From positions 1 through 60,730 of IMG/VR virus record IMGVR_UViG_3300028844_003505: 60,730 nucleotides of DNA; one strand, 5' to 3'. Of the stretch, positions 2,851 to 53,362 are shown piece after piece. A model generated the notes under the pieces. The model saw only the letters and a list, made by a program, of their open reading frames with translations, had not been told where the DNA came from and ran no database searches. Position 1 is the first letter of the stretch. Every line of letters starts with the position of its first letter. The stretch is from a virus. The position numbers were made by a program, and so were the translations under genes.

Positions 2851-4281
2851 ATGTATCTTGCTGAAAACAATATTGATCGAACAGAAGCGGTTAGAAACAA
2901 ATGGACTGAAAATGGAGTCCTAGAGCATTCTGACTTAGCTCCTATTAACGATCCTTACAAACGGGATGCCACACTTCGACTCTTAGAAAACCAAGAGAAG
3001 TTTTTGAGTGAAGCACCTACAAACATAATTGGGGATGATCCTACAAATACGGGTAATGTACGAACATGGGACCCAATTTTAATTAGCCTAGTTAGACGAA
3101 CTATTCCTAACTTGATTGCCTTCGATGTAGTTGGCGTTCAACCTATGTCTGGACCTACTGGTTTGGTGTTCGCAATGAAAGCGAATTACACCAGTTCTGG
3201 TGGAGCAGAGGCTAGTGGACAATCAGAGTACGATACTGATTTCTCTGGTCAGAATGCTCTAACGGCTGGTGGACCTGCCAATACTTTAGGTTCTCCATTG
3301 CATGTTGACACAGATGATACCAACAATCCATTTGCTGGTACATGGTTAACTGGTACAGGAATGTTAACATCGGAGTCTGAAGCGTTAGGTGATGCTACGG
3401 ATAACCATTTCCAAGAAATGGCATTCAGCATCGAGAAGACTTCCGTTGAAGCAAAATCACGAGCATTGAAAGCTGAATACTCTCTTGAATTGCAACAAGA
3501 TTTACGAGCAGTTCATGGTTTGGATGCAGAAACCGAATTAGCAAATATTCTTTCACAAGAAATCACTGGAGAAATCAATCGGGAAATCATCCGAATGGTA
3601 TACACAGTTGCTAAACCGGGAGCGCAAAAGAACACACAATCAGCAGGAACATTTGATCTAGACACAGATGCCAATGGTAGATGGTCTGTTGAAAAATACA
3701 AAGGTCTTATGATGCAGATTGAACGAGAAGCAAACGCTATCGCTAAAGAAACACGAAGAGGAAGAGGTAATATCATTATCTGTTCATCAGATGTAGCTTC
3801 TGCTCTAGCTATGACAGGAAAATTAGATATCAACCATGCGCTTTCAACTGGTCTAGAAGTAGACGATACTGGACGAACTTTTGCTGGTGTTCTTAACGGA
3901 CGTTACAAAGTTTATATTGATCCGTATTGGACTGTAAACAACACAGAAATCGCAGTAGTTGGTTATAAAGGTACTTCTTCACCAATGGATGCTGGTGTAT
4001 TCTATGCTCCATATGTTCCATTACAAATGGTTCGTGCAGTTGGGGAAAATACTTTCCAACCAAAAATTGCGTTTAAAACACGATACGGTCTTGTTAACAA
4101 TCCTTTCTTCAAAGGTGTTAATGCTACTGTTGGTGTTAAAACACGATACGGTCTTGTTAACAATCCTTTCTTCAAAGGTGTTAATGCTACTGTTGGTGGT
4201 GATACTAGTAACCCTTGGGCGGCTGGTTCTAAAAATGTTAACGCATATTACAGAAAAATAGCGATTAAGAACATTCTATAA
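2851..4281 (+). CDS. 23: Major capsid protein, T4 gp23 family
   Basis: 476 residues, forming the hexameric shell. Family signatures are strong: 'RRTIPNLIAFDVVGVQPM', 'KSRALKAEYSLELQQDLRAV' and 'FKTRYGLVNNPF'. FLSE ends at residue 54 and is followed by Ala; it aligns with the T4 gp23 maturation site FLTE-A, so gp21 removal of the N-terminal peptide is expected. Near the C-terminus a 21-residue block (KTRYGLVNNPFFKGVNATVG plus V) occurs twice in tandem; T4 gp23 has the corresponding motif once. A late promoter lies upstream and a terminator downstream. Confidence 0.97.
   Translation: MYLAENNIDRTEAVRNKWTENGVLEHSDLAPINDPYKRDATLRLLENQEKFLSEAPTNIIGDDPTNTGNVRTWDPILISLVRRTIPNLIAFDVVGVQPMSGPTGLVFAMKANYTSSGGAEASGQSEYDTDFSGQNALTAGGPANTLGSPLHVDTDDTNNPFAGTWLTGTGMLTSESEALGDATDNHFQEMAFSIEKTSVEAKSRALKAEYSLELQQDLRAVHGLDAETELANILSQEITGEINREIIRMVYTVAKPGAQKNTQSAGTFDLDTDANGRWSVEKYKGLMMQIEREANAIAKETRRGRGNIIICSSDVASALAMTGKLDINHALSTGLEVDDTGRTFAGVLNGRYKVYIDPYWTVNNTEIAVVGYKGTSSPMDAGVFYAPYVPLQMVRAVGENTFQPKIAFKTRYGLVNNPFFKGVNATVGVKTRYGLVNNPFFKGVNATVGGDTSNPWAAGSKNVNAYYRKIAIKNIL
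4073..4198 (+). repeat. Perfect 63-bp tandem duplication inside the capsid gene
   Basis: Bases 4073-4135 and 4136-4198 are identical and in frame (21 codons). No silent change has accumulated, so the duplication is very recent or an assembly artefact. Confidence 0.95.
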
Positions 4282-4306
4282 ACAGTTTTTAATAGCACAT
4301 ATATTA

Positions 4307-4342
4307 AGAGGGGAGAGTCCTAACGGGCTTTCCCCTTTTTTT
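4307..4342 (+). terminator. Intrinsic terminator after the major capsid gene
   Basis: GC-rich hairpin (AGGGGAGAGTCC / GGGCTTTCCCCT, with two wobble pairs) followed by seven Ts, about 25 bases after the capsid stop codon. Confidence 0.9.
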
Positions 4343-4559
4343 ATGATGCAACGTTAATTACTATAGTAGGCAGTATAGCACAAAACATATAAAGTGAAAG
4401 TTAGCCCCCGTAACTTTCACTTCGACACAAATTTTATTTTACCATCTCCAGAAACCACCATTTAGACATACCTTTTGACAAACAATCGTTTAAAATCATA
4501 TACTTAGAGTAAAAAAAAAGGTATGAGTTATAAGACTCTTTTAAATGGGTGTTTTTTTC
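4343..4559. other. Non-coding gap between the head and early regions, with one strong hairpin
   Basis: No gene is visible. Bases 4392-4403 and 4411-4422 form a perfect 12-bp hairpin (AAGTGAAAGTTA / TAACTTTCACTT) with a C-rich loop and no T run, so it is not a standard terminator. The rest is AT-rich and ends in a T tract before the promoter at 4560. Confidence 0.6.
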
Positions 4560-24802: not shown

Positions 24803-27307
24803 ATGATCCGAAAATTTTATACGAATGTATTTCCACTTAAAGGTAAAATATACGAGAGGTTTATAGACGACAATGGTTTAAAACAATTTACCAGTGTTAA
24901 CTATAAACCTTCTCTTTTTGAAGACGAATATTTACGATCCGATGGTTCTATGACACCATCTGGTTATGAAACTATTGATAAAAGACCTGCCAAAAAAATA
25001 GATTTTAAATCAATATATCAAGCCAAGCAATGGATAAAAGATAATAAAGGAATCGATAACCACAACATATATGGAAACGTGGATTTTCAATATCCATATA
25101 TTTCTGATATGTATCCTGATACTATTAATTATGATATTTCCAAGGTAGATATATTATTTTTTGATATTGAGGTAACAGCGAACAATGGATTTCCTAACGT
25201 TGATGATCCAGAAGATTCAGTTACTTCTATAACAGCACATTTAAATGGTAAATATCATGTTTTTGGTTTAGAGCAGTATACACCAAAAAGTTCCAATGTA
25301 GATTATACACTATGTTCCAGCGAACAAGATTTGTTATTTAAATTTATCACATTTTGGTCTAACGCAAAACCAGATATTGTTACTGGATGGTTTATTAAAC
25401 TGTTTGATATTCCTTATCTGATCGGTAGATGTATAAAGATTGGAATGAAAGATGAAATGAAATATCTTTCGCCTGTCAAGACAATCTTTGAAAAGTATGT
25501 ACATTTAAATAATAAAGATAATAGATGCTTCGATATATATGGAATATCTATATTAGATTATTATGACCTATATAAAAAATTCTCTCCTAAAAAACAAGAA
25601 TCATATAAATTAGGTTATATCGGATATGCCGAATTAGGATTGGACAAAATCCAAGATGATGAAATTGCTGGTTATAATTTATATAAAACAGATTATGAAA
25701 AGTTCATTGACTATAACATAAGAGATGTTGAAATTGTAGTTGAATTAGAGAGTAAATTAAAGATGATCGAATTGGTAATGTTTATAGCCTATCATGCAAA
25801 GGTTAATTACCAAGATGTTTTTTCTCCCGTTAAGACGTGGGATACCATCATTTTTAATTATCTAAAACAACATAAAATTGTTATTCCCCATAAAGATGCA
25901 AAAAGAAAAGATGCTAAATATGAGGGGGCATATGTAAAGGAGCCGAATTGTGGACGATATAATAATATATTATTATATGATTTCACATCACTATATCCCA
26001 GAATTATTTGTAGTTTGAATATAGGACCAGAAACAAAACGAGAGTATTATGATTTTGGAAGAGGTATTCAAGATGAATTGAATGGAGCAATTTCAAATAT
26101 AGATGTTGAATCAGTTCTAGAAAAAACAATGGACTTAGATGTTTTGAAGAAAGTTGGTTGTGGGATTGGTGTGAATGGTACATTATACGATAATTCGTTT
26201 CCGGGTATGTTGTCTATATTGATTAAAAAATTATCTAGTGATAGAACTGAGGCTCAAGAAAAAATGTTTGGATATCGGATTGAAGATGAATTTGGTTATG
26301 CATCTGAAATATCTTATTTGGATGTCAAACAACAGGCATTGAAAATTCTTCTTAACTCCCTGTATGGGGGATTAGGAAACCAATATTTTAGATTTTATGA
26401 TATCGACAATGCGGAAGCTGTTACTGTCACAGGACAAGCCTTGATTCAATGGGTAGAACGAAACATAAACAAGTTTTTGAATACATATTTTAATACAACT
26501 GATTTTGAATATGCATTTTATTGTGATACTGATTCTGTATTCTTAACAATACCAGATATTGATGTAGATAAATTAAAAGAATTTGGTAATAATATAATCA
26601 CTCCAAAGATAAAAGAATTGGTTGCCGAAGCTAGTGAATATTTAAATATGTATGAAAACTTTTTGTCAATGGGAATGGAAATAATAGCTAACACGGGTAT
26701 ATGGACTGCTAAGAAGCGATACATGATGAATGTTGTTCATAAGGATGGAAAGGATTATGACGAAGCTAGATTGAAGATAATGGGTATAGAGTCGGTAAGA
26801 ACATCAACACCAGAAATAGTACGCAAACGTATTGAAGAATGTATTACAATTATTTTAAGAAAGGAAAAGGCTGATGTTGAAAAATTCGTTCTTGATTTTG
26901 AAAAGGAATTTTCGTCATTACCTCCAGAAGATATTGCATTTCCAACCTCGATAAATGATATAGGCAAATATAAAAGTGATGATCTGTATTATCGTCTATA
27001 TGAAAAAGGAACTCCCATACATGTGCGGGGGAGTATTCTTTATAACAATCAGTTAACCGAACATGGGTTGACTCAATGGTATAATGAAATTAGAGATGGA
27101 GATAAAATTAAATTTGTGTATTTGATGTTGCCTAATGGTATTGGGGAGAATGTTATTTCATTTCCTTCAATACTACCAGAAGAATATGACTTACATAATT
27201 ATATAGATTATAAAACACAATTTCAAAAAACTTTTTTAGAACCAATAGAAAGAATAACAGATATTATTAATTGGAGAATTAACGGAACTCCATCGTTACC
27301 ATTTTAA
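24803..27307 (+). CDS. 43: DNA polymerase, T4 gp43 (family B)
   Basis: 834 residues (T4 898). Exonuclease motif I 'DILFFDIEVTANNGFP' near 115-130; polymerase motif A 'DFTSLYPRIICSLNIGPE' near 393; motif B 'KQQALKILLNSLYGGLGN'; motif C YCDTDS near 574 (T4 has GDTDS). Both replicative and proofreading activities should be intact. No Shine-Dalgarno site precedes the ATG, and a promoter -10 box ends six bases upstream, so a leaderless transcript is possible. Confidence 0.97.
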   Translation: MIRKFYTNVFPLKGKIYERFIDDNGLKQFTSVNYKPSLFEDEYLRSDGSMTPSGYETIDKRPAKKIDFKSIYQAKQWIKDNKGIDNHNIYGNVDFQYPYISDMYPDTINYDISKVDILFFDIEVTANNGFPNVDDPEDSVTSITAHLNGKYHVFGLEQYTPKSSNVDYTLCSSEQDLLFKFITFWSNAKPDIVTGWFIKLFDIPYLIGRCIKIGMKDEMKYLSPVKTIFEKYVHLNNKDNRCFDIYGISILDYYDLYKKFSPKKQESYKLGYIGYAELGLDKIQDDEIAGYNLYKTDYEKFIDYNIRDVEIVVELESKLKMIELVMFIAYHAKVNYQDVFSPVKTWDTIIFNYLKQHKIVIPHKDAKRKDAKYEGAYVKEPNCGRYNNILLYDFTSLYPRIICSLNIGPETKREYYDFGRGIQDELNGAISNIDVESVLEKTMDLDVLKKVGCGIGVNGTLYDNSFPGMLSILIKKLSSDRTEAQEKMFGYRIEDEFGYASEISYLDVKQQALKILLNSLYGGLGNQYFRFYDIDNAEAVTVTGQALIQWVERNINKFLNTYFNTTDFEYAFYCDTDSVFLTIPDIDVDKLKEFGNNIITPKIKELVAEASEYLNMYENFLSMGMEIIANTGIWTAKKRYMMNVVHKDGKDYDEARLKIMGIESVRTSTPEIVRKRIEECITIILRKEKADVEKFVLDFEKEFSSLPPEDIAFPTSINDIGKYKSDDLYYRLYEKGTPIHVRGSILYNNQLTEHGLTQWYNEIRDGDKIKFVYLMLPNGIGENVISFPSILPEEYDLHNYIDYKTQFQKTFLEPIERITDIINWRINGTPSLPF

Positions 27308-44629: not shown

Positions 44630-44830
44630 ATGGGAAGAACCAGAATATATAAAGAAGTTGATTCTAAGGAATTTGTTAAACAATTAAAAGCAAATAATAA
44701 AAAGATAGATTTGAGTCGAGTATCGTGGAAAATAATATACGATACAAAACTCAGCAGTAAAGTCGAAATTCCAAGGATAGTTGAAACTATGAAAGTACGA
44801 CATGGAGTTTACGACTTGAGTAGAGTGTAA
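44630..44830 (+). CDS. Small basic protein, unknown
   Basis: 66 residues, basic. 'KKIDLSRVSWKI' and 'HGVYDLSRV' repeat a DLSRV pentad. TGGGAG precedes the ATG at 44630. Unknown. Confidence 0.55.
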   Translation: MGRTRIYKEVDSKEFVKQLKANNKKIDLSRVSWKIIYDTKLSSKVEIPRIVETMKVRHGVYDLSRV

Positions 44831-45559
44831 TTACTAACCCTAAAATTTGAATAATCAGATTGGAGGTAGCCGATGAATTTCATGGCTTGCACTATACGAA
44901 GTTTAATTTAAATTTTTACAACTAACTTATAAATTAAACTAAACTAGAGACTAGGGGTACAATTTTCGGATTTAATATTCATAACTAGTACTGATAAATA
45001 CGCTATCCATTAGAGGATAGAAAAGGAGGTTAGATTCCTTCACAATCGTAGAGAGATTGTTAGTATAATGCAGGGAAACTTATAGTTTATCATAAAAATC
45101 CAATCAAGATAGAATTTTCTTTTGGTTGAAGTCCACAAAAAATCGGGGTTTGTATAATGATCCTAAAATCCCAAATCAATATGCATATAATGAGATGATA
45201 TAGAAGTAATAATAGAAGGTATACAGGCTATGGGGCTAATAACCTGAAAGAATGGTGATGACCTTTCTTTAAAGCCCCAAAAATTCGGTATAAATTTTAC
45301 AGGCCGGGGAGTCAGTATCGCCGGGTGGGTCGGGTAGCTTGGGGGCTACCAAAGGTTTTCTGGTTTATCCTTGGGCAAGAAAAACCAGACAAAAATTTTT
45401 ATCTTCCCTTGCAAACGGAAGTGGTTCAGGTGTATGAGTTAAGTGGTTCTCATATAAATAAAAAACCACCAGAAAATTATGTCTTCGTGCAAAAGAAGGG
45501 CCTACGCAGATATGAGTTTGGAAGTTCTCATATAAAACAAAAACTATCCACCAAATTTT
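44831..45559 (+). other. 729-base non-coding, hairpin-rich region before the first tRNAs
   Basis: No convincing gene. Local hairpins include CTATCC/GGATAG (45003-45020), ACAATC/GATTGT (45042-45060) flanked by a T-arm-like GGAGG-TTAGATT-CCTTC and a D-arm-like TAGTATAATG, GGGGCT/AGCCCC (45231-45278), GGTAGC/GCTACC (about 45334-45350), TCTGGTTT/AAACCAGA, and two copies of a TATGAG...CTCATATAAA hairpin (about 45432-45457 and 45510-45536). It looks like one or more stable RNAs or decayed tRNA genes. Confidence 0.5.
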
Positions 45560-45635
45560 TGTAGTGTAGTATAATCGGTATTGCGCCTGTCTGTTAAACA
45601 GTAAGATGTAGGTTCGAGTCCTACCACTACAGCCA
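45560..45635 (+). tRNA. tRNA-Asn (GTT)
   Basis: Acceptor TGTAGTG/CACTACA, anticodon loop CTGTTAA, T arm GTAGG-TTCGAGT-CCTAC, encoded CCA. Confidence 0.93.
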
Positions 45636-46603: not shown

Positions 46604-46668
46604 GGTAGAGTTCCCCGGAGGGGGGGATATAGTACTGTAGGTGGTTCGATCCCATCACTCTATCGCCA
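46604..46668 (+). ncRNA. Truncated tRNA-like RNA with T arm and CCA
   Basis: 8-bp acceptor GGTAGAGT/ACTCTATC, T arm GGTGG-TTCGATC-CCATC, G then CCA. The D arm is replaced by a CCCC-GGAG-GGGG hairpin, and no proper anticodon arm remains in about 65 nt. Likely a degenerate tRNA or a tRNA-like RNA. Confidence 0.5.
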
Positions 46669-46675
46669 AATATCA

Positions 46676-46734
46676 TGCGAGATTAGTAGGAGTGACCATA
46701 CTAGTTAAACGGATACTTCTACTGTCACGCACCA
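46676..46734 (+). ncRNA. CCA-ended tRNA-like unit 1 of an array
   Basis: TGCG/CGCA then CCA. AGTAGGAGT/ACTTCTACT forms a hairpin around the shared core ATACTAGTTAAACGGAT. An alternative closing stem is GAGTGAC/GTCACGC. There is no T arm. The linker ATATCATG precedes and follows it. Confidence 0.45.
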
Positions 46735-46742
46735 CATATCAT

Positions 46743-46806
46743 GTGCCAAGGTTTTTTGTAATCATTTTATACTAGTTACGGATGTTGAGAAATACTTGGC
46801 ACACCA
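46743..46806 (+). ncRNA. CCA-ended tRNA-like unit 2 of an array
   Basis: Perfect 8-bp closing stem GTGCCAAG/CTTGGCAC, then A and CCA, in 64 nt. It contains the core in the form ATACTAGTTACGGAT and no T arm. Confidence 0.5.
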
Positions 46807-46814
46807 AATATCAT

Positions 46815-46891
46815 GAGGGGTTCTTGTCTAACTCATACTAGTTAAACGGATGAAGACGGATTAAGATGGTTAATAGCCAGAACCCTCACCA
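46815..46891 (+). ncRNA. CCA-ended tRNA-like unit 3 of an array
   Basis: Closing stem GAGGGGTTC/GAACCCTC (one bulge), then A and CCA, in 77 nt. It has the full core ATACTAGTTAAACGGAT plus an ATTAA/TTAAT hairpin; no T arm. Confidence 0.5.
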
Positions 46892-46893
46892 AA

Positions 46894-46992
46894 TTTTGAG
46901 TTATATCTAAAACAGGATTGCATGGGTGGCATCTGTGTAAGCGGGTTGACGTTGGGCCTAAGCCAAGGCGAGCAACTATTTATAACTCAAAA
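46894..46992 (+). ncRNA. Structured RNA closed by a perfect 12-bp stem
   Basis: TTTTGAGTTATA (46894-46905) pairs with TATAACTCAAAA (46981-46992). Inside are GATTGC/GCATC and TTGG/CCAA hairpins. It is not a tRNA. It fills the space between the array and tRNA-Asp. Confidence 0.55.
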
Positions 46993-48808: not shown

Positions 48809-48816
48809 AAATATGA

Positions 48817-48972
48817 GAGAGTGTGTATCGGTTTATACTATGGGAGTGGAGAAAGTTCTGTTAGTAATAGTCACTTATAAGGTTACTAATGTAGTGTTCA
48901 TAATCCCGCAAGATATTGATAGCATGTTATTATATATCAGCCGTTAGCGAATATCCAACAATACACATTCTC
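48817..48972 (+). ncRNA. 156-nt multibranched RNA closed by a 12-bp stem
   Basis: GAGAGTGTGTAT (48817-48828) pairs with ATACACATTCTC (48961-48972). Inside are TTAGTAA/TTACTAA, GGGA/TCCC and TGATA/TATCA helices. It lies between tRNA-Met and tRNA-His without a reading frame. Confidence 0.6.
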
Positions 48973-48982
48973 CCTTTTTAAT

Positions 48983-49093: not shown

Positions 49094-50245
49094 ATGAGCG
49101 AAAATGAAACCATTACAAAAAAGTTTGTACCAACAAATCACAATGTACTGAAAACGGATAATGATAATCATATCGTTGCCAAAAATATTAGCAGTACGGT
49201 AGAACTTAATTCATCATTTCATGAGATGGATGTCTATGGTATTATCAACATGAGATCGTTGAAAAATTTTGATGATTTCTTGAAAGAGTTTCCAAGTAAA
49301 GAGTTTACTGCAAACTTCGATGATTCTTTCAATCTGAAATTGGATTATACTTCGGTTTATAATATTGTAAAGAATTTTGGAGAACTGGCATTATATCAAA
49401 ATCGGTATTACTCGAAATATAAAAATTGTTTGTGTTTGTTTAATATAGATGCTGATTCTAAGAAAACTCAGTTTTCGTATGATATTTATGGTCATGATAT
49501 GACTGAAGTTTTGTCGGTTGCAAACGAGTTTTATAAATCTATCGAAACTTATATTTTTGATGAAAACCATATCAATCTTAAATGGTTGTATATGGACGAA
49601 AATAAACAGTCGAGAGATCATGATGTACAAGTAAAGTATGACGATGTTGTGTTGGCAGAAGCATATCCATTTATTGAAAACTTCTCCAACTACATCGATA
49701 ACTATTTGAATAGTGAAGAAACTATTCTGGTATTGCAGGGAGAACCGGGAACTGGTAAGACTCGATTGATTCGACAGTTGTTAACGGCAATGTCTAAGTT
49801 CCACAATGGTAATAAATATTTTGGATTCACAACATCACCAGAGTTGATTGACAAAGAAACTTTTTACATGCAGTTTTTGTTAAGTGATGGTTATGGTGGA
49901 ATGGTTCTTGAAGATTCTGATACCAGTATTACTTCAAGAAAAAAAATCAGCGAGAACACAACGATCAGTAAAATGTTATTTGCTTCTGATGGATTTATTC
50001 CGCATAATAAGAAAATTATTTTGAGTACAAATCTTGATGTAACAGACATCGATGATGCGATTACTCGAAGTGGACGATGTTATGATTTTGTAAAGACTCG
50101 AAAATTGAGTCCAACCGAAATCAGAACTTTCATGGATGCATACAACAAGAAATTTAATTTGAGTGTCGAGATTCGAGAATTTCATCAAGATGCTCCGTTG
50201 TGTGATGTTTATAAAGCAATAAAGAATACAACAGAAAAGAAATAA
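49094..50245 (+). CDS. AAA ATPase of unknown function
   Basis: 383 residues. Walker A QGEPGTGKTR near 215-224, Walker B-like 'GGMVLEDSD' near 275, sensor 'IILSTNLDVTDIDDAITRSGRCYDF' near 315-340, the last resembling second-region-of-homology Arg residues of BCS1/FtsH-type AAA proteins. The first 200 residues are a separate domain without known relatives. It lies between tRNA-His and tRNA-Pro. It may unfold a protein target; no partner is visible. Confidence 0.75.
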   Translation: MSENETITKKFVPTNHNVLKTDNDNHIVAKNISSTVELNSSFHEMDVYGIINMRSLKNFDDFLKEFPSKEFTANFDDSFNLKLDYTSVYNIVKNFGELALYQNRYYSKYKNCLCLFNIDADSKKTQFSYDIYGHDMTEVLSVANEFYKSIETYIFDENHINLKWLYMDENKQSRDHDVQVKYDDVVLAEAYPFIENFSNYIDNYLNSEETILVLQGEPGTGKTRLIRQLLTAMSKFHNGNKYFGFTTSPELIDKETFYMQFLLSDGYGGMVLEDSDTSITSRKKISENTTISKMLFASDGFIPHNKKIILSTNLDVTDIDDAITRSGRCYDFVKTRKLSPTEIRTFMDAYNKKFNLSVEIREFHQDAPLCDVYKAIKNTTEKK

Positions 50246-50252
50246 GTTTAAT

Positions 50253-50330
50253 CGGAGTGTAGCACAGTCTGGTCAGCGCACATGCTTTGGGAGCATGGGG
50301 TCGTAGGTTCGAATCCTACCACTCCGACCA
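50253..50330 (+). tRNA. tRNA-Pro (TGG)
   Basis: Acceptor CGGAGTG/CACTCCG, anticodon stem ATGC/GCAT with loop TTTGGGA, T arm GTAGG-TTCGAAT-CCTAC, encoded CCA. Confidence 0.96.
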
Positions 50331-50345
50331 AATTAATTTAGAAAG

Positions 50346-50422
50346 TCTGGAATGTAGGTGTTGAATCCTACCATCAAAATAGAGTTATGGATGTTTCGAT
50401 GTAGTTTAAGAAAAACACCAGC
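50346..50422 (+). ncRNA. Permuted tRNA candidate A (3' half before 5' half), diverged
   Basis: 3' half: TCTGG (50346-50350), AAT, T stem GTAGG/CCTAC with 8-nt loop, acceptor CATCAAA (50372-50378). 5' half: acceptor TTCGATG (50395-50401), TA, D stem GTTT/AAAC, anticodon strand CCAGC (50418-50422). Acceptor strands pair 6 of 7, anticodon strands 4 of 5. The D loop lacks GG, so decay is likely. Confidence 0.45.
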
Positions 50423-50436
50423 TTAGAATTAAAAGA

Positions 50437-50543
50437 GCCGAGAGTATGGGTTCGAATCCCATTATGTAATTAAAGTGTATGCCTATCCATAACTATTTAT
50501 ATATTTATCATATAGTTTAATTGGTAGAACATCGGCGTTTACC
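50437..50543 (+). ncRNA. Permuted tRNA candidate B (3' half before 5' half)
   Basis: 3' half: GCCGA (50437-50441), GAGT, T arm ATGGG-TTCGAAT-CCCAT, acceptor TATGTAA (50463-50469). 5' half: acceptor TTAtCATA (50505-50512, one bulge), TA, D arm GTTT-AATTGGTA-GAAC, A, anticodon strand TCGGC (50532-50536). The anticodon strands pair 5 of 5. A separate 9-bp helix GTTATGGAT/ATCCATAAC (50384-50392 with 50485-50493) encloses the junction with candidate A. Confidence 0.55.
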
Positions 50544-50602
50544 TTTCGCTAGGGTGTAGTGTAACAGAACATAAACAATTATTTAAGTTAGGGGGTCTAA
50601 CT

Positions 50603-51733
50603 ATGAATAAATTTAAAGCACCAGAAGAAGCATCTAACATATATATAGACCATGTTAGCAAAAAAGCAAAGTTTGATTATTTGATTTATATTGGAAGATT
50701 TCAACCATTTCATAATGGACACAAGAAAGTAGTTGAAACTGGTTGTGCTATTTCAGATAAAGTGATTATATTGTGTGGTTCGTGTAATGTTCCTAGAACT
50801 ATTAAGAATCCATTTATATTTGAAGAACGAAAGAATTATATAGAGAAAACATTCGAGCATACTGAATATAAAGATCAGGTTATTATTAGAGGTCTTAATG
50901 ATATGGCATCTAATTCCGAATGGATAATTCAAGTCCAAAATATAATTAATGCATTGACAGAAGCTAATATCTCTGAAAATGTAAAGATTGGAATTATTGG
51001 ACATATGAAAGATGAATCATCTTGGTATCTGGAAAAATTGAATCTAGAATTTATTGAAGTTGGTATTTACAAAGACAGTACAAATATTGCAAATAAAAAA
51101 GTAGATTCTACTGATATTAGGAATCATATTTTTACAAATGAGCAGTACGAGTATAAAAATATAATTTCTGATGCAATGCAATATTGGCTTGAAGATTGGA
51201 AACGAGAAAAATGGGATGTGTATGAACATCTTCAAAAAGAGTATAAATTCAATAAAGAATATAAAAAGCAATGGGAAGGTTCTCCATTCCCTGTTCAATT
51301 TGTAACTGTTGATGCAGTAGTAGTTCAAAATGGACATATTCTTCTAATACAAAGAAAAACACAACCGGGTAAAGATTTATGGGCATTGCCGGGTGGGTTT
51401 TTAAATGAAGATGAAACATTACGTGAAGGAGTTTTACGAGAACTTAAAGAAGAAACACAATTAAAAGTTCCATCTAAGATTTTAGCAACACATATTCAAA
51501 ATCAAAATTCAATAGCTTTTGATAATCCACATAGATCGTTGAGGGGTAGAACAATTACTCACGTATTTGTTTTTAACTTACAACCTGATCCAGAAACTGG
51601 ATTATCTAATATCAAAGGCTCCGATGATGCGAAAGATGCTAAATGGGTTCCTTTGAACGAGTTCGACAAGATGGCAAAGGAAATGTTTGAAGATCATTAT
51701 TTTATTGCCGAGCATTTTATTAAACAATTATAA
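50603..51733 (+). CDS. natV: Bifunctional NMN adenylyltransferase / Nudix hydrolase
   Basis: 376 residues. An N-terminal nucleotidyltransferase with GRFQPFHNGH (31-40; the HxGH motif) and 'STDIRNHI' makes NAD from NMN and ATP. A C-terminal Nudix domain has the box G-x5-E-x7-REL-x-EE (near 264-284), in enzymes of this type acting on ADP-ribose. The same fusion occurs in Vibrio phage KVP40 (NatV). AGGGGGTC precedes the ATG. It is adjacent to the NAMPT gene, giving a two-step route from nicotinamide to NAD. Confidence 0.93.
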   Translation: MNKFKAPEEASNIYIDHVSKKAKFDYLIYIGRFQPFHNGHKKVVETGCAISDKVIILCGSCNVPRTIKNPFIFEERKNYIEKTFEHTEYKDQVIIRGLNDMASNSEWIIQVQNIINALTEANISENVKIGIIGHMKDESSWYLEKLNLEFIEVGIYKDSTNIANKKVDSTDIRNHIFTNEQYEYKNIISDAMQYWLEDWKREKWDVYEHLQKEYKFNKEYKKQWEGSPFPVQFVTVDAVVVQNGHILLIQRKTQPGKDLWALPGGFLNEDETLREGVLRELKEETQLKVPSKILATHIQNQNSIAFDNPHRSLRGRTITHVFVFNLQPDPETGLSNIKGSDDAKDAKWVPLNEFDKMAKEMFEDHYFIAEHFIKQL

Positions 51734-53204: not shown

Positions 53205-53290
53205 ATAATAATCTTGGATGGCGTTTTATGAAAAAAAATCTATTTGTGAAGGATAATATCAAATCAGAGATATACGGGAGCATGAAATAT

Positions 53291-53362
53291 GCTCCCGTAG
53301 CTCAATGGCAGTAGCGGTCTCCTTATAAGAGATTGACGTAGGTTCGAATCCTACCGGGAGCA
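53291..53362 (+). tRNA. tRNA-Ile (TAT), CCA not encoded
   Basis: Acceptor GCTCCCG/CGGGAGC, anticodon stem TCTC/GAGA with loop CTTATAA (UAU reads AUA), T arm GTAGG-TTCGAAT-CCTAC. After A73 comes TAA, so CCA must be added by an enzyme. A copy of GGGAGCAT just upstream could pair with the 5' end. Confidence 0.9.

Follow-up and report, generated by a model that had tools for sequence, protein, structure and literature searches.

Permuted tRNA-like elements in a viral tRNA array and their possible role as tRNA mimics

We show that two elements in the tRNA array of the window (the whole stretch of DNA analysed, a viral contig of 60,730 nt) carry the parts of a tRNA in permuted order with complementary stem strands, and that the same architecture is present in other genomes. 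The stretch 50346-50536, which includes one of these elements (B) and a more doubtful neighbour (A), is tentatively best explained as tandem permuted tRNA-like modules of a phage tRNA array that most likely function, unspliced, as tRNA mimics. Each module would run, 5' to 3', from an anticodon-type stem strand through a T arm, an acceptor hairpin with the linker as its loop, and a D arm to the second stem strand; B would have intact stems, A would be a decayed copy, and the second element (C) would provide a third, clean example. All three are probably co-transcribed with the tRNAs of the array and may exist in vivo in the closed-loop form, in which they could mimic tRNA, for example by decoying or scaffolding enzymes that recognise its T/acceptor/D face, as bacterial YrlA Y RNAs do.

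The window carries T4-type genes (Gp23 capsid protein, prohead protease, UvsY, UvsW and a family B polymerase), and its 20 ARAGORN tRNAs all lie within 45.5-59.7 kb. The A/B locus is located 3' of tRNA-Pro (50253-50330), flanked by genes for an ATPase and for NadM-Nudix, and the order 3'A-5'A-3'B-5'B of the original prediction is indeed present after this tRNA. Scans of 50200-50620 for promoters and terminators gave no signal above shuffles.

Permuted elements of the tRNA array

All parts of A, B and C lie on the plus strand. The 3' part of B (50437..50469) opens with the anticodon-stem strand GCCGA (50437-50441), continues with a T stem at 50446-50462 (ATGGG/CCCAT, 5/5 pairs, loop TTCGAAT) and ends with the acceptor strand TATGTAA (50463-50469). 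It is followed by a linker, or end loop (50470..50504), and by the 5' part (50505..50536), which consists of the acceptor strand TTATCATA (50505-50512, T50508 bulged), a D stem at 50515-50530 (GTTT/GAAC, 4/4, GG in the loop) and the anticodon-stem strand TCGGC (50532-50536). The anticodon stem TCGGC/GCCGA pairs 5/5 and the acceptor reaches 7 bp if T50508 is bulged; CCA is not encoded. In C (56091..56167), CATTA is followed by the T arm, the acceptor strand CCCAGCC, T73, CCA (ending at 56127) and a 10-nt linker, after which the 5' part supplies the acceptor strand GGCTGGG (56138-56144), the D arm and TAATG. Every stem of C is complete and CCA is encoded, making it the cleanest permuted element of the window. 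By eye, a possible basal helix (56079..56188) would pair CAGACCC (56079-56085) with GGGACTG (56182-56188) around C, with one A-A mismatch.

In the circularised scan, segments of the window were doubled, which brings the parts of a permuted element into ordinary order, and ARAGORN was then run with an anticodon-loop intron allowed. This returned 16 rows, 14 of which were edge effects on annotated tRNAs; the remaining two are B and C, and 200 dinucleotide shuffles of the window yielded one such call altogether. A covariance model of permuted order (R1), which excludes the anticodon arm and was built from 22 ordinary tRNAs that had been permuted artificially, scored C at 59.9 bits and B at 40.9 bits. 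R1 alone is not decisive, because ordinary tandem tRNA pairs score as well, with maxima of 41.3 bits for the window and 54.6 bits for phage DLP6 (L100). What is decisive for B and C is their orphan status, both lying outside annotated tRNAs, together with anticodon stems that are independent of R1 (5/5 each). Judged by its paired strands, B is a real permuted tRNA-like element, and C is supported as an independent second case of the permuted order. An anticodon assignment for B and C was dropped, the cut point being free.

The 3' part of A (50346..50378) comprises the anticodon-stem strand TCTGG (50346-50350), a T stem at 50354-50371 (GTAGG/CCTAC, 5/5, with an 8-nt loop and preceded by a 3-nt variable loop) and the acceptor strand CATCAAA (50372-50378), and has GAATCCTACCA in common with tRNA-Pro. 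A linker, again an end loop (50379..50394), leads to the 5' part (50395..50422), with the acceptor strand TTCGATG (50395-50401), a D stem at 50404-50416 (GTTT/AAAC, 4/4, its 5-nt loop lacking GG) and the anticodon-stem strand CCAGC (50418-50422). By coordinate, 6/7 acceptor, 5/5 T, 4/4 D and 4/5 anticodon pairs are formed. A permissive scan of 16.7 kb finds A, C and one further place, against a chance expectation of 0.33 per shuffle. The suggestion that A is a diverged permuted candidate is weakly supported: neither circularised ARAGORN nor R1, even with filters off, recovered it, and what speaks for A is therefore its place next to B and the likeness of its sequence to parts of tRNAs. A is plausible only as a decayed permuted copy.

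In the predicted minimum free energy fold, the two halves of A are paired (P 0.87 for the acceptor and 0.89 for the anticodon stem) and the anticodon stem of B is formed (P 0.95); an alternative hairpin (50468-50481/50509-50522) displaces the acceptor and D arm of B. A, B and C do not stand out by their folding energies, with z between -1.2 and -1.6.

The defects of A and B fit another origin, in which duplicated tandem tRNAs shed their outer halves and left a 3' half followed by a 5' half with no function. The D loop of A lacks GG and its T loop has 8 nt, B lacks CCA and has a bulged acceptor, and the tRNA at 56210 looks imperfect too. Adjoining ordinary tRNAs with matching acceptors, from which such debris could derive, do exist (at 27116 and 19706 in L100, and the tandem tRNA-Phe of L167). 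However, C retains all stems and CCA, deletion is not expected to yield the linker hairpin of DLP6 or the TTCG-closed acceptor of the viral contig L148 (both described below), and a tandem pair in Herpetosiphon has been kept in four species. These counterpoints bear on the architecture and less on A and B themselves, for which we regard decay as a serious and live rival, somewhat doubtful as the full account.

An inverted repeat between the two linkers

The linkers of A and B share a perfect inverted repeat, with arm 1 (AGTTATGGAT, 50383..50392) at the centre of the A linker and arm 2 (ATCCATAACT, 50485..50494) inside the B linker. A perfect 9-bp helix had been proposed here; the repeat is present, with a length of 10 bp. 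A perfect inverted repeat of at least 10 bp turned up in 12 of 300 shuffles of 50331-50560, and 27 of 264 window tiles, each 230 nt long, contained one as well. Such a length is common in the window, and the repeat is weak evidence.

The helix was further proposed to sort the halves into matching pairs, or keep wrong ones apart, through its nesting. This role is contradicted by the positions of the pairs, which cross the acceptor (50372-50378/50395-50401) and anticodon stems (50346-50350/50418-50422) of A as well as the acceptor (50463-50469/50505-50512) and anticodon stems (50437-50441/50532-50536) of B. Because it crosses the stems of both modules, the helix cannot fence off mismatched halves while matching halves pair, and a nested helix would exclude A and B as modules altogether. 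Secondary-structure prediction, which had been put forward as a check, did not favour the helix either: its probability in the pseudoknot-free ensemble is 0.037, and the fold with the helix forced has -42.7 kcal/mol compared with a minimum of -44.8, that is, 2.1 kcal/mol above the minimum.

The helix can enclose 5'A and 3'B, as had been claimed, without crossing only in an ordinary-order layout, where 50395-50470 (5'A plus 3'B) would be a degenerate tRNA and the 10-bp helix its leader-trailer stem. Rfam scores this layout at 29.3 bits with RF00005, against a cut-off of 29, and the helix nests around it. Yet 2/7 acceptor and 2/5 anticodon pairs would be broken, the anticodon loop would be enlarged, ARAGORN makes no call, and the strands of B pair 5/5 with their own partners, all of which makes an ordinary-order tRNA very unlikely.

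For the permuted modules, the complementarity of the linkers may provide at most a loop-loop contact between A and B, probably a weak one and perhaps accidental. It is quite unlikely, in our view, that phage tRNA arrays harbour a so far undescribed class of permuted tRNA mimics that work without Ro60, of which the two modules here would dock end to end via a 10-bp kissing contact of their acceptor-end loops. By eye, linker-linker complementarity of this sort was not seen in the short linkers of the tandem Herpetosiphon pairs.

Similar elements in phages, viral contigs and Herpetosiphon

The T4-like phage DLP6 has NadM-Nudix, NAMPT and a tRNA array in a like neighbourhood. Its authors give 30 tRNAs by tRNAscan-SE (PMC5349666), and between tRNA-Pro and tRNA-Leu we find a permuted element (L100 28223-28301) with 7/7 acceptor, 5/5 T and 4/4 D pairs. 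The linker forms an extra 13-bp hairpin that closes or prolongs the acceptor, and the minimum free energy is lower than in 500/500 shuffles. Phage X1 holds a further element (L112 31778-31856; acceptor 7/7, T 5/5, D 4/4, anticodon 5/5; fold z -1.45), and the elements of DLP6 and X1 are both without annotation in their records. A permuted tRNA-like element at 2056-2175 of a 355-kb viral contig (L148) has a 6/7 acceptor with TTCG as its closing loop, together with a basal repeat GGAATTCA/TGAATTCC; its folding energy is not low (z +0.36), and we make no claim about its D arm. Closed acceptor hairpins in some of these elements favour YrlA-type mimics over tRNAs that are to be spliced. C encodes CCA, which would be needless for a closed hairpin and stands as a counterpoint to such a mimic.

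We also searched for the RNA-ligase families RtcB, Rnl1-type and Rnl2-type. None of the three was found in the complete DLP6 genome, which argues against splicing by phage enzymes in DLP6, and none in the window fragment, an incomplete genome; two of the three (Rnl1-type and Rnl2-type) had matches in both X1 and the L148 record.

In the surveyed phage regions, a candidate was retained when it recurred over scan windows. The DLP6 survey gave four candidate rows, of which the 11-window row was retained and three single-window rows, along with one artefact row, were dropped. Among the seven rows of a further phage survey, X1 31826 was retained (12 windows) and five single-window rows were dropped; XacN1 9401 is a weak candidate, present in 9 windows with a 4/7 acceptor. 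No candidate recurred over windows in the AAS21, Phosso, Mosig, RVTF4 and nepoznato regions, and the candidate rows of L019 came from one window each. Viral loci with tandem tRNAs (244 tRNAs) contained a candidate in one of 31, with rows of fewer than three windows left out.

Relatives of A, B and C themselves were found neither in phage records nor, by exact patterns, in viral contigs, where the C acceptor pattern and the B pattern each gave 0 matches and the DLP6 pattern gave three, all without a tRNA or permuted call. Searches with the neighbouring genes for the ATPase and NadM-Nudix likewise gave no relatives in viral contigs. A NAMPT search led to 11 loci, of which 8 had no tRNAs, and a gp23 search to 80 short loci; these protein-relative loci (L009 onward; 695 kb and 53 tRNAs, including L100 and L019) are weak controls.

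In bacterial genomes, a relaxed form of the C acceptor pattern gave 16 matches. Permuted elements were present at four, all from Herpetosiphon; one other match was the ordinary tandem tRNA-Phe pair (L167), and 11 were without any permuted call. The four loci (L158, L160, L161 and L172) come from different Herpetosiphon species, and in every one a pair of permuted elements, both with encoded CCA, stands in tandem. The pair, which in L160 lies at 4115-4544 on the minus strand, has a strong hairpin after it. Most of this 430-nt segment is kept across the four species, the linker of the first element being among the variable places. Rfam gave 0 matches at E<=0.01 on the four loci. At the level of whole genomes, a TROVE-family match is present in all four.

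Comparison with known RNAs and possible roles

The tRNA-like domain of YrlA consists of a T arm, a loop-closed acceptor stem and a D arm, in that order, enclosed by a stem (PMC8394870). B and C, and partly A, are alike in having a permuted T arm, closed acceptor and D arm; unlike YrlA (RF02553), the phage elements lie inside a tRNA array, and C encodes CCA. The YrlA model covers C over its full length (1-114) at 26.8 bits, where the gathering cut-off is 69 and an ordinary tandem tRNA-Asn pair receives 36.1 bits; this low-scoring alignment (56078-56192) spans the region of the possible basal helix, which, by sequence, could correspond to the stem at the base of YrlA that binds Rsr. For B, the model gave no match at E<=5. 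The phage elements therefore resemble the YrlA tRNA-like domain in shape, without reaching the cut-off that defines the family. A gene for TROVE (Ro60/Rsr) was found in none of 10 phage or viral records (the window, DLP6 and eight more, some of them fragments), and the host could supply the protein. One YrlA in a prophage is among those listed in PMC8190616, and PMC7824862 mentions that some jumbo phages have a TROVE protein.

Circularly permuted tRNA genes of the kind described for six algae and one archaeon (34 genes with BHB junctions as of 2014; PMC3978253) likewise place the 3' half first and split in the anticodon loop, as B and C do. If the viral elements were such genes, the ends in the anticodon loop would be joined, RNase P would open the resulting circle, and the tRNA would then be charged. 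Joining does give a complete cloverleaf with CCA for C and nearly so for B, which has a bulge (A is not called), with the joint within the anticodon loop in both, and ARAGORN lists no leucine, serine or cysteine tRNA for the window. However, the joined anticodon loops are ambiguous, with ARAGORN offering tta, tag and att, B lacks CCA, the acceptor ends of DLP6 and L148 are closed by hairpins, and the ligase families are missing from DLP6, as they are from the incomplete window fragment. We consider genes for spliced, charged tRNAs an unlikely explanation. In the portions of the literature available to us, we found no phage described as having a permuted tRNA.

The permuted (two-piece) tmRNA (RF04321) also has a CCA end and a short linker followed by the 5' acceptor strand. 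It differs in that D stems are complete here (4/4 in B, C and DLP6) and C lacks G3-U70, and it was rejected with 11.7 bits for C and 20.4 bits for DLP6 against a cut-off of 47. Low-score Rfam matches to miRNA, snoRNA and similar families were taken as chance.

Finders built for ordinary order overlook permuted elements. If the elements considered here are made and stable, they would be phage-encoded tRNA mimics that lack the Ro60 partner found in bacteria, and could decoy the nucleases with which an infected host cleaves tRNA. Should they be debris, they would point to duplication and loss as a route by which permuted tRNA genes arise.

Several other features of the array region were noticed. 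The stretch 5' of the array (44830-45560) has few clear genes and appears hairpin-rich by eye. The stretch 46604-46664 resembles a tRNA in its T arm and its acceptor (GGTAGAG/CTCTATC, with GCCA) but lacks normal D and anticodon arms, and 46666-46895 holds three consecutive hairpins, each with an ACCA end, that have a CATACTAGTTA-like core in common and receive no ARAGORN tRNA call. Long closing stems occur in apparently non-coding DNA between tRNAs at 46896-46990 (TTTGAGTTATA/TATAACTCAAA) and 48816-48976 (GAGAGTGTGTAT/ATACACATTCTC). Directly 3' of C, ARAGORN calls a tRNA-??? at 56210-56284, whose acceptor is imperfect and whose anticodon loop is unusual. Finally, just 5' of tRNA-Ile, the sequence at 53270-53299 repeats the 3' acceptor strand of that tRNA and can pair with its 5' strand.
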